From Armatimonadota bacterium (lineage in GTDB: Bacteria; Armatimonadota; Fimbriimonadia; Fimbriimonadales; Fimbriimonadaceae), in the NCBI GenBank assembly GCA_016223145.1, contig JACRPN010000005.1, positions 164,511 to 228,510 on the forward strand: a stretch of DNA of 64,000 nt, written 5' to 3'. This document shows, piece by piece, positions 59,688-64,000 of this stretch. Under the pieces are notes generated by a model. It was not told where the DNA came from and did no database searches. It saw nothing but the letters and a program-made list of their open reading frames with translations. Position 1 is the stretch's first letter, and every line of letters begins with the position of its first letter. A program made the position numbers and the translations under genes.

Positions 59688-60728
59688 TCAGGCCCGGCGA
59701 CGCTTTCGGGATAGGGCCAGCAGGCCGATCCCGACCACGGCCAGCCCAGACGGTTCCGGTACGAACGCTGCGCATCGCTGCTCCAGCCAGTCCACATCGT
59801 CCTGGATGAACCGGACGCCTCGGCCGATTGAACCGTAGTAGAAGTTCTCTTGGCCACCCCCCTGATAGAGGTTGTAGCCGCCGTCTCCATAGACCTGGGT
59901 GAGAACACCGGTGATTCCGTCCGTATTGACCGGGTTGTTCCCGATCATCCCCGGAGCGCCATTCACCAGAAGCGGCCCCCCCGAGTCGCCACGGTTGCCC
60001 TGGCCCTCGCCGGCCTGAGAGTTGATGTCCCAAACCCACTCGACACGGTTGTAGGTATAGCCGCCTTGATTGAGGTTATTCAGGAACGCCGTGACCGTGT
60101 TATTGTAGTAGCGGTGCGTGCCAAACGCCTCATTGGCGTTGGCGTTGCTCCACTGAACGCCCACCTGAACGTTGTTCTGGTTCAACTGGTGGCCGCCGCG
60201 GCCATAGCCGTAACCCGTGAACGAGTAGTTGGCGATCGGCGCAGCGATCAAGCCCAGAGCCTGGACGCCCGCCAGATAGGCCTCTTGTGCCGCCGTGAGG
60301 GCGTTGGCGCCCCCGCCGCCCACACGGGCGCGAATCGCCATGAACGCATAGTCCTGAAGACCGGTGCGGCCCCCGTGGAAGATCACGCCGTTGTTGGCGC
60401 CGGTCGGATCGACGCTGAACCTGCCGCCGGTTGCCCCGTTGCCTTCAAAGCCGATGGTGATGCCCGCGTTGCCGGTCACCACGTGGTCCGCGGTCACAAG
60501 ACAAAGGTAGCGATAGTCGCCAATGCGCTCGTTGTGAAAGATTGGCCCGGAACCAGACCCTTGGGTACCCAGTACGCGGATCACCTGATCCTGTGTGCCG
60601 GCGGCCACGGTCTGAGCCATGGCGTTGTTGCCCGAAACGAATGATCCCCAAGCCCCAGATGCCAAGATCGCGGCAGCGCCCATCCCGAACGCCGACCTGA
60701 AGCTGAGGTGCAAACGAACACCCTTCAT
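59688..60728 (-). CDS. PEP-CTERM trypsin-like serine protease
   Basis: This is a secreted protein of 346 aa with an N-terminal signal (FGMGAAAILASGAWGSFVSG). The C-terminal sorting signal is VPEPSGLAVVGIGLLALSRKRRR: a PEP motif, a hydrophobic helix and a basic end, which exosortase would process. Between them lies a chymotrypsin-fold protease with the triad His in CLVTADHVVTG, Asp in GLQDYAFMAI and Ser in GNRGDSGGPLLVNG. Gly/Asn-rich loops (GYGYGRGGHQLNQNNVQVG) are unusual. A GAGGAGG site precedes the ATG, unlike the leaderless genes. No exosortase gene is in this window. Confidence 0.88.
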   Translation of the reverse strand: MKGVRLHLSFRSAFGMGAAAILASGAWGSFVSGNNAMAQTVAAGTQDQVIRVLGTQGSGSGPIFHNERIGDYRYLCLVTADHVVTGNAGITIGFEGNGATGGRFSVDPTGANNGVIFHGGRTGLQDYAFMAIRARVGGGGANALTAAQEAYLAGVQALGLIAAPIANYSFTGYGYGRGGHQLNQNNVQVGVQWSNANANEAFGTHRYYNNTVTAFLNNLNQGGYTYNRVEWVWDINSQAGEGQGNRGDSGGPLLVNGAPGMIGNNPVNTDGITGVLTQVYGDGGYNLYQGGGQENFYYGSIGRGVRFIQDDVDWLEQRCAAFVPEPSGLAVVGIGLLALSRKRRRA

Positions 60729-60880
60729 GATTCCTCCTCAAATCCAAAACCACCGGCAAACGCGCCGGACAGAACATCCCAAGTGTAAAGGAATCCTGAC
60801 CAAGATGCAAAGTATGTGGCCCCAAGACCCGCATAAATGCCAGGGGATCGGCGGGCGGTCCGAATACGATCGGGGGTCTG

Positions 60881-60886
60881 TATACT
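60881..60886 (+). promoter_or_regulatory. -10 of the AmpG-like gene, leaderless
   Basis: TATACT ends 6 nt before the ATG at 60893. There is no room for a Shine-Dalgarno site in the transcript. Confidence 0.55.
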
Positions 60887-60892
60887 GCGCTC

Positions 60893-62338
60893 ATGGTCGC
60901 CCCTCCCGACGAACCTAATGCCGGACAGCCGATTCCGACGGCAAGAAGCCCTTGGTCGTTCGTGCCTGTTCTTTACTACCTTCAAGGGTTGCCGGTGATG
61001 ATCGTCCAAGGCCTGGCGGGAACGATGTACACCAAGATGGGGATAGAGGCGGGTCCCCTTGGGCTCTGGACCAGCCTCCTGAAGCTCCCCTGGATGCTCA
61101 AACCGCTTTGGGGGCCGCTCGTTGAGCTCAACTCAACCAAGCGGCGTTGGATCATCGCCATGCAGGCGCTGGTTCTGGTTAGCCTCGCGGCTGCCGCGAT
61201 GGCGGTCCAGCAGCCGGCCTTCTTTGTTCTGACCCTATGCGCCTTTCTCGCGACGGCGTTCTTCAGCGCGACCCATGACATTGCCGCTGACGGCTTCTAC
61301 CTTTTGGCGCTCGACCCCCAGCGCCAAGCGTTTTTCGTCGGCATTCGGTCGGCGTGCTTTCGGCTGGCCACTCTGACGGCCACCTTCTTTCTGGTCTACA
61401 TCGCGGGCGACATGGAAGAACGGACGGGCAACATCCCCAAGAGCTGGACGACGGCACTCCTCATCGGCTGCGCGATCTACGGCGTTTTGGCTCTGGTCAA
61501 CGCATTGGCCCTGCCCAGGCCGGCCGCCGACTCGCAAGGCCCGCTCAATGCCTCGTCGGAGGCCATGGCGCCGCCGTTCTTCATGGCGTTTGCAGCGTTC
61601 TTCAAGCAGGACCGGATTCTCTGGGTTCTCGCATTCATCCTGTTCTTCCGGTTTGGCGAATCCATGATCTCAACCATGTCGCCACAGTTCCTGCTAAGGC
61701 CCGAGGCCGATGGCGGCCTAGGCGTCTCCACCAAGGCATCCGGCGCCTATGGGGGAGCCGTCGGGGTTCTCGCGCTGACCTTCGGAGGCATCCTCGGAGG
61801 CTGGCTAATCTCGAAAAAGGGCATCCGGAGGACCATTTGGCCGATGGTGCTCGCGCTAAACCTGCCCAACCTCTTTTACATTTGGCTGGCCTCGTCCCAT
61901 CCCGTCAACCGAATGGACCCCCTGCTCAGGAGCGCGCCGGAAAACCTGCCCGTTCTCTCTTTGGACTATTTGAACTACGCCGGGCAGGTGCTCTCCACGG
62001 CCGTCACCGACCCGGTTGGCATCGCGATCGCCGTGGACCAGTTCGGCTACGGGTTCGGGTTCTCCGCGTACCTGGTCTATTTGATGTACGTGTCCCAGTC
62101 GAGCCCTTACAAGACGTCCAGCTATGCGATCGCAACCGGGCTGATGGCCCTTGGGGCGCTCCTGGCGGGCTCAATCTCAGGGTTCATCGTCGACGCGATG
62201 TCCCACCAGCACCCCGGCCAGGGATTCCTGTGGTTCTTCTGGGTGGTCATGGGGTGTACGGTGCCCGGAATGGTGACGCTGTTCTTCATCCCGATGCACT
62301 ACGAGGACCTGCACGCCAAAGCGGACCTGGACGGATAA
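60893..62338 (+). CDS. AmpG-like MFS permease
   Basis: This 481-aa protein has 12 or more predicted helices. Its N-terminus (FVPVLYYLQGLPVMIVQGLA, LLKLPWMLKPLWGPLVELNS) and FFSATHDIAADGFYLLAL match the AmpG/acetyl-CoA-transporter branch of the MFS, which includes the muropeptide permease. It lacks the short C-terminal end typical of enterobacterial AmpG and has an extra loop of about 40 residues (HPVNRMDPLLRSAPENLPVL). Muropeptide uptake for wall recycling is a reasonable guess, but the substrate is not proven. Confidence 0.75.
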   Translation: MVAPPDEPNAGQPIPTARSPWSFVPVLYYLQGLPVMIVQGLAGTMYTKMGIEAGPLGLWTSLLKLPWMLKPLWGPLVELNSTKRRWIIAMQALVLVSLAAAAMAVQQPAFFVLTLCAFLATAFFSATHDIAADGFYLLALDPQRQAFFVGIRSACFRLATLTATFFLVYIAGDMEERTGNIPKSWTTALLIGCAIYGVLALVNALALPRPAADSQGPLNASSEAMAPPFFMAFAAFFKQDRILWVLAFILFFRFGESMISTMSPQFLLRPEADGGLGVSTKASGAYGGAVGVLALTFGGILGGWLISKKGIRRTIWPMVLALNLPNLFYIWLASSHPVNRMDPLLRSAPENLPVLSLDYLNYAGQVLSTAVTDPVGIAIAVDQFGYGFGFSAYLVYLMYVSQSSPYKTSSYAIATGLMALGALLAGSISGFIVDAMSHQHPGQGFLWFFWVVMGCTVPGMVTLFFIPMHYEDLHAKADLDG

Positions 62339-62357
62339 GGGTGCTTGGGGCGATATC

Positions 62358-62380
62358 ACCTCCCCCTCGAAGGGGGAGGT
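62358..62380. terminator. Hairpin between convergent genes
   Basis: ACCTCCCCCT and AGGGGGAGGT are perfect 10-bp arms around CGA. It stands between the AmpG-like gene and the convergent dehydrogenase gene. There is no T-run. It belongs to the CCTCCCC repeat family. Confidence 0.5.
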
Positions 62381-62417
62381 CGGAGAGCAATCGCGAACCG
62401 GGAGAGGGGGCCGGGCC

Positions 62418-63575
62418 TTACGAGAACTTGATCTTGAACGGGCGCTTCTGAAGCTCCTCGACGAAGCGAGTGCCGGTCATCGCCGTCTCATAGCGCAAGG
62501 CGCCTGCTTCCATCTCACCCGCGCCGATCGCATGGGCATAGATGGCGGCTGAGAATCCCGTCAAGCGCTCCATCGCCGTAAAGCCGGTGATGTCGTCTTC
62601 CTTATCGAATATGTCGATCTGGAGGCGCTTGGATTCACCGTTCTTGGTTCCAACGCCCACCATGCGGACCGCGCACAAGTCCTTGTCCTCGATCGCCGCC
62701 AGGCGGTCGCCGAAGACCTTGTAGAAAAGGTCGGCCGGGCGCACCTTACACCCGTGAATGTCCACCTGATCCAGGCTCCAAAAACCCCAATCCTTGAAGA
62801 TACGCATCAGTTGACAGTGGCCGGGGTACCGGATGGTCTTGTATTCGTAATTGTCGACCCGGCCCTGAAAGGTGTAGGGCGCCGTGCTTGTGCCGCCTGA
62901 GGTCGTGAACGCCTCCATGTCGCCAAGCTCGTCTATGTGGAGGTCTTCAAGTTCGTCGAGCGTGTCGACAAGCACGATTTCGCCACTCCGCAGGACCACG
63001 GCCTTGTGGTCGTATTCGGCTACCAAACCCTCGACGTTGAAGGTCAGCTTGTAGTTGAACGGCGGGATCGGGTTCTGGGGGAGAACGCCGCAGTACATCT
63101 TAACGTGCTGCGCATGGTCCAGGTTCTCGATGGCGTAGCAGCCCAGGTTGTTCACCAGGCCCGGCGCAAGGCCGCAATCGGGCACCAGAGTGACGCCGGC
63201 TTCGCGTGCCTCCTCGTCCATCGCCAGCGTCTGCATGCTGATCTCGGTGTTCCCGCCAAGGTCGACCATGTTCGTCTTGCTCTCGATCGCCACCTTGGCG
63301 ATCTTGGGGTGCATCCAATAGGGCACACAGCTCGCCAGCACATCCACGCCTTCCAGGAACTTGTGAAGGTTGGTGGGGTCGAGCGCGTTCACCTGGGCGG
63401 GCTCGCAGACCGCCGAGCCAACAAGGTCGTTGACTCTCCATGCGGCCTTCTTGGCCTGCTCGATGCACATGTCGCCCATATGGATCTTTGCGGGCGAGGC
63501 GTGCTTGGCGAGATCATAGGCAAGGGCTGTCCCCTGCATTCCTGAACCTAGAATTGCGTACTGTTTGCTCATCAT
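62418..63575 (-). CDS. Saccharopine dehydrogenase-family protein (L-lysine dehydrogenase-like)
   Basis: This 385-aa NAD(P)-dependent oxidoreductase has the Rossmann motif YAILGSGMQGTALAYDLAKH. It then has EGVDVLASCVPYWMHPKIAKVAIE and MVDLGGNTEISMQTLAMDEE. LVPDCGLAPGLVNNLGCYAIE and the C-terminal TGFSAAIYAHAIGAGEMEAG follow. These fit the branch that includes lysine 6-dehydrogenase and related enzymes. The start at 63575 follows a strong AAGGAGGGGA site. A longer in-frame start at 63656 would pass through a terminator-like hairpin. Substrate uncertain, no lysine-pathway neighbour. Confidence 0.8.
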   Translation of the reverse strand: MMSKQYAILGSGMQGTALAYDLAKHASPAKIHMGDMCIEQAKKAAWRVNDLVGSAVCEPAQVNALDPTNLHKFLEGVDVLASCVPYWMHPKIAKVAIESKTNMVDLGGNTEISMQTLAMDEEAREAGVTLVPDCGLAPGLVNNLGCYAIENLDHAQHVKMYCGVLPQNPIPPFNYKLTFNVEGLVAEYDHKAVVLRSGEIVLVDTLDELEDLHIDELGDMEAFTTSGGTSTAPYTFQGRVDNYEYKTIRYPGHCQLMRIFKDWGFWSLDQVDIHGCKVRPADLFYKVFGDRLAAIEDKDLCAVRMVGVGTKNGESKRLQIDIFDKEDDITGFTAMERLTGFSAAIYAHAIGAGEMEAGALRYETAMTGTRFVEELQKRPFKIKFS

Positions 63576-63626
63576 CGAGTCTCCCCTCCTTCCATTGACG
63601 GCTCTTCGTGAGCCGCGGTCACACCC

Positions 63627-63672
63627 AAAAAAAGCGCCCCGTATAGGGGGGCGCATCAGGAACACCATTGTA
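63627..63672 (-). promoter_or_regulatory. Promoter and terminator-like hairpin (possible attenuator) in the dehydrogenase leader
   Basis: On the minus strand, TACAAT (63672-63667) is followed after about 10 nt by GCGCCCC-cctatac-GGGGCGC and seven T (63654-63627). The ribosome-binding site of the dehydrogenase gene comes only afterwards. A terminator placed before the first gene implies controlled read-through, or the end of a very short RNA. Confidence 0.6.
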
Positions 63673-63719
63673 CCGAGGGGGGCCGGTGGCTCGCTGACCC
63701 CTCGGGAGGCGACAAGAGA

Positions 63720-63890
63720 AGTGCATCCCGTTCATCCCCTTCCTTCGCACTTCGCACCTCGCGCTGCCCCGTCCAGCCTTAGTAGCTGAGAACCTGAACA
63801 CCTGAAAACCTGATGGCCTGAACACCTGAAGACTCGACAGCCTGAAAGCCTCACGCCCCCTCCCCAGACCCACCACCCCATCTCCCCCAC
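63720..63890. repeat. CTGAACACCTGAAAA-type word repeats
   Basis: Tandem CCTGAACACCTGAAAACCTG and CAGCCTGAAAGCCT words, preceded by CTTCGCACTTCGCACC words. I see no gene in 63673-63906. Confidence 0.65.
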
Positions 63891-63894
63891 CTTC

Positions 63895-63900
63895 CATAAT
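63895..63900 (+). promoter_or_regulatory. -10 of the M3 peptidase gene, leaderless
   Basis: CATAAT lies 6 nt before the ATG at 63907, and there is no Shine-Dalgarno site. Confidence 0.5.
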
Positions 63901-63906
63901 CTCCCC

Positions 63907-64000
63907 ATGAGTTCTGCCGTCGCCGAATCCTTACCGCGATGGGACCTTTCGGTCCTCTTCGACAGTCCCGAAGACCCACGTATTTCCGCAACCTGGGAGC
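63907..64000 (+). CDS. M3-family oligoendopeptidase F-like protein, N-terminal fragment
   Basis: Only the first 31 codons are in the window (MSSAVAESLPRWDLSVLFDS and on). The phrase LPRWDLSVLFDSPEDPRI is characteristic of the start of oligoendopeptidase F-type metallopeptidases. The zinc motif HEXXH would lie beyond the window end. Start choice is supported by the -10 hexamer 6 nt upstream. Confidence 0.6.
   Translation, partial: MSSAVAESLPRWDLSVLFDSPEDPRISATWE

Follow-up and report, generated by a model that had tools for sequence, protein, structure and literature searches.

Gene context and anatomy of the leader

The window, i.e. the whole stretch of DNA that was analysed, comprises 64,000 nucleotides from contig C5 of the 3.87 Mb genome of a member of the Fimbriimonadaceae (Armatimonadota). 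Towards its end lies a gene for a 385-residue protein in which Pfam identifies both the NADP-binding and the C-terminal domain of saccharopine dehydrogenases (Table 1). The closest PDB match by sequence is 3abi (PH1688; E 6.4e-35), presumably an L-lysine 6-dehydrogenase, and an NCBIfam search gave no match. The gene upstream is divergent, as a preliminary description of this DNA had stated, and encodes a peptidase of the M3 family. The intergenic region also contains a degenerate 8-base tandem repeat (ACCTGAAC-like) at 63777-63909, and similar stretches recur at 21 further sites of this genome.

Table 1. Genes and leader elements around the saccharopine dehydrogenase-like gene (positions in the window)
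Feature	Positions	Strand	Basis
Saccharopine-dehydrogenase-family gene, 385 aa, start codon ATG at 63575	62418..63575	-	PF16653, E 6.7e-37; PF03435, E 5.5e-16
Ribosome-binding site GGAAGGAGGGGAGA	63580..63593	-	sequence
Second hairpin GCGGCUC-ACGAA-GAGCCGU, between U-tract and ribosome-binding site	63598..63616	-	fold
U-tract, TTTTTTT directly after stem	63627..63633	-	sequence
Putative terminator stem-loop GCGCCCC-CCTATAC-GGGGCGC, 7 GC pairs	63634..63654	-	fold
Assumed transcription start, 7th base after -10	63660	-	inferred from usual spacing
Presumed -10 element GGTACAAT	63667..63674	-	sequence; recognisable -35 absent
Divergent peptidase M3 (oligopeptidase F) gene, start codon ATG at 63908, runs past window	63908..64000	+	PF01432, PF08439

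The presumed -10 element consists of GG followed by TACAAT (63672-63667), and the transcription start was placed at the usual distance from it. No -35 element of the TTGACA type could be identified, and a consensus promoter scan of positions 60000-64000 yielded no promoters. An inverted repeat, CCGAGGGG...CCCCTCGG (63673-63705, minus strand), seen by eye only, abuts TACAAT, close to where a -35 element would lie.

The seven-T hairpin and its location ahead of the ribosome-binding site could be confirmed letter by letter, as could the position of GG+TACAAT. It had been described as following TACAAT by about 10 nucleotides; the order is correct, albeit with an exact spacing of 12. The stem-loop has a predicted energy of -14.2 kcal/mol, equalled in 2 of 200 shuffles, and with its flanks (63662-63626) it reaches -15.4 kcal/mol (z -3.9), a value that none of 200 shuffles attained. 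It combines a GC-rich stem-loop with an immediate U-tract, as is typical of an intrinsic terminator. Counted from the assumed start, a short RNA ending with the U-tract would extend to about +34. The number of terminator-like sites in positions 60000-64000 is unremarkable (five, compared to 3.6 in shuffled sequences, sd 1.8), and the hairpin stands out by its quality and position rather than by the local site count.

As only 12 nucleotides separate the -10 element from the stem, the space ahead of it would be too short for an RNA antiterminator or, as in the earlier reading, for an aptamer. A known RNA family was rejected, since the Rfam covariance models gave no match in positions 60000-64000 up to an E-value of 5, nor at gathering score in 20 loci of relatives.

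Recurrence in orthologous leaders

The enzyme is present in 104 of the 113 genomes of the order Fimbriimonadales. Two fragments (G065 and G105) were left out, and 102 leaders were analysed, including those of G096 and G064, for which 25 and 88 nucleotides of upstream sequence are available, respectively. In 78 of these leaders GGTANNNT is found at least 25 nucleotides upstream of the start codon, and the other 24 have no GGTANNNT at such a distance within 130 nucleotides. A strict test, demanding a hairpin of -9 kcal/mol or lower that starts at most 16 nucleotides from the -10 element and has at least 5 T of 8, was passed by 30 of the 78, while 1.9 would be expected by chance, as judged by dinucleotide shuffling of each leader. 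These matches are distributed over family f1, which includes the window (14/61), and families f2 (10/10), f3 (1/1) and f5 (5/6), the latter three together accounting for 16 matches in 17 leaders. No genome examined from genus g19 had a leader that passed. When stems beginning before about +1 were disallowed and the limits slightly widened, 31 of the 78 leaders passed, representing 21 of 38 genera, and their predicted RNA ends range from +24 to +63 with a median of +32. In a relaxed test, with the strict hairpin anywhere in 130 nucleotides, 35 of 102 leaders were positive as against 4 of 30 lepA upstream regions (p 0.04), the latter being the 30 highest-scoring loci among 81 genomes searched. 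A terminator-like structure between a putative promoter and its own gene is enriched at this gene family across species.

Within the genus of the window, the three species share an identical GGGCGCTTTTTTTGGGT, although the greater part of the leader fails to align, and the longest conserved block consists of a stem arm together with the U-tract. The neighbouring gene scores clearly highest as divergent in 11 of the 14 f1 matches, with weak or mixed scores in G033, G028 and G018. In family f5 a divergent neighbour is clear for G062 and moderately supported for G054; G058, G052, G056 and the f3 case are unclear. In family f2 a co-directional flagellin gene ends just upstream of the hairpin, which may simply end that gene, and the f2 cases are hence ambiguous.

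Conservation in relatives had been suggested as a check on the hairpin, and its presence turns out to be patchy. In family f1, 47 of 61 leaders fail the strict test, and the terminator is absent from G016 and G041, which in the protein tree are sister to the genus of the window. Its presence or absence changes 18 times on this tree, suggesting that it has been repeatedly lost or regained rather than simply inherited. Covariation in nine f2 leaders (87.5% paired, 84.4% in shuffles) was matched in 87 of 500 shuffles, which may reflect the difficulty of aligning a stem of this length. When hairpins were chosen regardless of T, the right-hand side contained 2.69 T of 8 compared to 1.70 by composition (p 0.001), yet the number of A on the left-hand side is similar to this excess (p 0.10 for a difference).

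Occurrence elsewhere in the genome

In 743 kb of this genome, for which a crude gene caller of our own delivered 575 genes, GGTANNNT lies 25 to 115 nucleotides upstream of 30 genes. The strict hairpin with U-tract within 16 nucleotides of GGTANNNT was found for one gene of the 575, the saccharopine dehydrogenase-like gene itself. It was also absent from the 18 GGTANNNT sites that 400 kb of sequence from four relatives contain, so that none of 47 other leaders or sites (29 genes and 18 sites pooled) carries it. A run of seven T occurs in the upstream stretch examined of only two of the 575 genes. In six genomes that have paralogues of the enzyme, these do not show the arrangement, as judged by eye in 200 nucleotides of upstream sequence. 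With the promoter relaxed to TANNNT, three of 143 genes of this genome, including the present one, carry the design, and it is also found in G033 (three sites), G058 (one) and G061 (one); with any TANNNT, the design is therefore rare but not unique. In sequence terms, the putative leader terminator is linked to this gene and patchily kept.

TANNNT itself is commonest within 10 nucleotides of start codons; in the 343 kb sampled, 47 such sites were counted for 264 genes, and this crowding suggests that many transcripts are leaderless.

A loop motif in leaders of the f1 family

A second element, ACAAMGGMGT in a loose form, is located close to the ribosome-binding site; it is present in 33 of 80 f1 leaders (e.g. 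L054 and L142) and in none of the 30 lepA upstream regions; as the motif was defined after seeing these leaders, such counts describe rather than test. One f1 leader has both motif and terminator, 14 the terminator only, 32 the motif only and 33 neither (Fisher p 0.003, inflated by related species). The first and last two bases of the motif can pair, forming a small hairpin, and the adjacent outer pair shows coordinated changes (G-C or A-T), being paired in 23 of 28 cases (p 0.015 against shuffles), while pairs further out are weak. The motif is absent from the leaders of this genome (G000), G001 and G002. When 85 genomes were scanned for the pattern, 26 gave a match, and inspection by eye revealed no second gene that recurs, except for one identical string shared by two genomes; the idea of a multi-gene regulon was therefore dropped. 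A CsrA-like reading of the loop was likewise abandoned, as the GGA triplet is not kept.

Proposed function and alternatives

On balance, we favour the view that hairpin and U-tract form a promoter-proximal intrinsic terminator that probably acts as an attenuator lacking both aptamer and antiterminator. Polymerases would start at GGTACAAT and many of them would stop at the terminator about 34 nucleotides into the transcript, so that the fraction reading through would set the expression of the saccharopine dehydrogenase-like gene. The site agrees with the proposal in the preliminary description that transcription stops after about 35 nucleotides unless something prevents it, but the latter wording is too strong, since intrinsic terminators leak. 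As no sequence capable of forming an aptamer or antiterminator precedes the stem, read-through should depend, as in rimP/nusA leaders, on the polymerase and general factors (NusA, NusG and elongation speed) or, alternatively, on a protein binding the nascent 5' end. If the structure does terminate, the Armatimonadota would have, beside nusA, a second gene whose leader terminator is aptamer-free, and such a device would be found on a metabolic enzyme instead of the transcription machinery. The orthologous leaders with and without it would then provide a natural panel for studying the tuning of so short a terminator.

The hairpin could also be a 5'-terminal structure that shields the mRNA or sets the spacing of the ribosome-binding site; it would then not terminate, and the T run would be incidental. 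This is unlikely, although hairpins of -6 kcal/mol or lower within 16 nucleotides of the -10 element are found in 65 of the 78 leaders, more than have U-tracts, and hairpins lacking T are common among f1 leaders. Against it speak the T excess after the stems, the seven T that are kept in the genus while most other leader sequence diverged, and the rarity of T7 upstream of genes in this genome. An inverted repeat just downstream of a promoter is also suitably placed for a DNA operator bound by a repressor, and the stems of G028 and G033 are near-perfect palindromes; yet stem sequences vary between genera while pairing persists, and the T tract on the 3' side would be left unexplained, which makes an operator highly improbable. 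Least probable of all, in our estimation, is that the hairpin blocks read-through from outside or that a second promoter beyond the T run serves the gene, the latter having been offered earlier as an alternative. The f2 hairpins, which follow the flagellin gene, would suit a block of this kind; in the window the divergent neighbour speaks against it, and the hairpin has, as described earlier, no other gene to end, so that a terminator of the upstream gene is conceivable in f2 only. A second promoter is not supported by the 58 nucleotides between stem and ATG, which lack any TA dinucleotide and hence any -10 element of the TANNNT form.

Two further explanations invoke a ribosome or a dedicated regulator. 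In the E. coli ampC attenuator, a terminator lies between promoter and gene in a very short leader, as it does here; it doubles as terminator of the upstream operon, resembling the flagellin arrangement of f2, and the mechanism requires that a ribosome can bind before the stem. The present hairpin might similarly be melted by a ribosome that initiates at the leader ATG at 63656, as this codon lies just before the stem, in frame with the gene and with no intervening stop in this genome, and the frequent TANNNT near starts makes leaderless initiation plausible. Such a mechanism is nevertheless very unlikely, because the ATG at 63656 has no ribosome-binding site, G001 and G002 have no start codon ahead of the stem, and ATG, GTG or TTG is found before or at the stem in only six of the 31 leaders, the other 25 differing in this respect from ampC. 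A leader peptide or N-terminal extension, for which the window has the required frame, was rejected on the same lack of conservation. It is also conceivable, but rather doubtful, that control of the leader lies with a specific RNA-binding protein or small molecule, and that lineages swap the terminator for the ACAAMGGMGT-loop hairpin by the ribosome-binding site. The presence of the motif in f1 leaders and not upstream of lepA, its rare coincidence with the terminator and the maintained pair next to its core are consistent with such a swap. Against it stand the post hoc definition of the motif, the kinship that inflates the Fisher test, its absence from G000, G001 and G002, the weakness of the pairs further out, and the 85-genome scan in which no second gene was seen to recur. 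Slightly less probable still would be its fullest form, a dedicated RNA regulator of the Fimbriimonadales that answers to one protein or metabolite signal and has interchangeable endings, either the terminator at about +32 or the loop hairpin.

Comparison with known leader attenuators

Aptamer-free attenuators of the kind that we favour are already known before other genes, and the present gene is probably a new case. A literature search by title, in which subscription journals are thinly covered, revealed no description of this leader and no leader-RNA work on Armatimonadota, and the terms 'saccharopine' and 'lysine dehydrogenase' are absent from the main text of one of the leader-attenuator papers cited here.

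The closest parallel is with rimP and nusA leaders. In Streptococcus agalactiae, an intrinsic terminator ends the rimP-nusA transcript at 31 nucleotides, which the authors of the report (PMC4448216) interpret as NusA feedback, leader terminators of such length being thought to set the expression level through NusA. For Bacillus subtilis, a second report (PMC12288461) describes control of nusA by NusA-stimulated termination in its own leader. The likeness extends to a lone intrinsic terminator in the leader without aptamer or visible antiterminator, and to the stop at +31, compared to +34 predicted here. In contrast, the rimP-leader precedes rimP-nusA-infB and not a saccharopine-dehydrogenase-family gene, and its stem, defined as GGGc(...)gCCC by Naville and Gautheret (2010; PMC2965389), differs from GCGCCCC...GGGGCGC in the window, of which the 5' arm is C-rich. 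Most f2 stems are G-rich and then C-rich, in likeness to that definition.

The hosts themselves appear to use the leader-terminator principle, as a TATAAT-type promoter followed by a hairpin with T run was found by rule in the nusA leaders of 10 of 13 genomes (loci L243-L255). In the three that failed the rule (G050, G004 and G007), a hairpin with T run is visible by eye. This genome has its nusA leader terminator on contig C5 of G000, upstream of position 134936. The stem in the window begins nearer to +1 than those of the nusA leaders of the same genomes. We infer no more than a possible link between NusA and the saccharopine dehydrogenase-like gene.

Attenuation of pyrG requires a run of G at the transcript start. 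The start region in the window, GGTGTTCCTGATG, has no such run. The pyrG attenuator of B. subtilis, which depends on reiterative transcription (PMC4448216), otherwise resembles the present leader in having a terminator without aptamer, with read-through decided at the 5' end. A G-run, as in pyrG, is found near the start of the f2 leaders.
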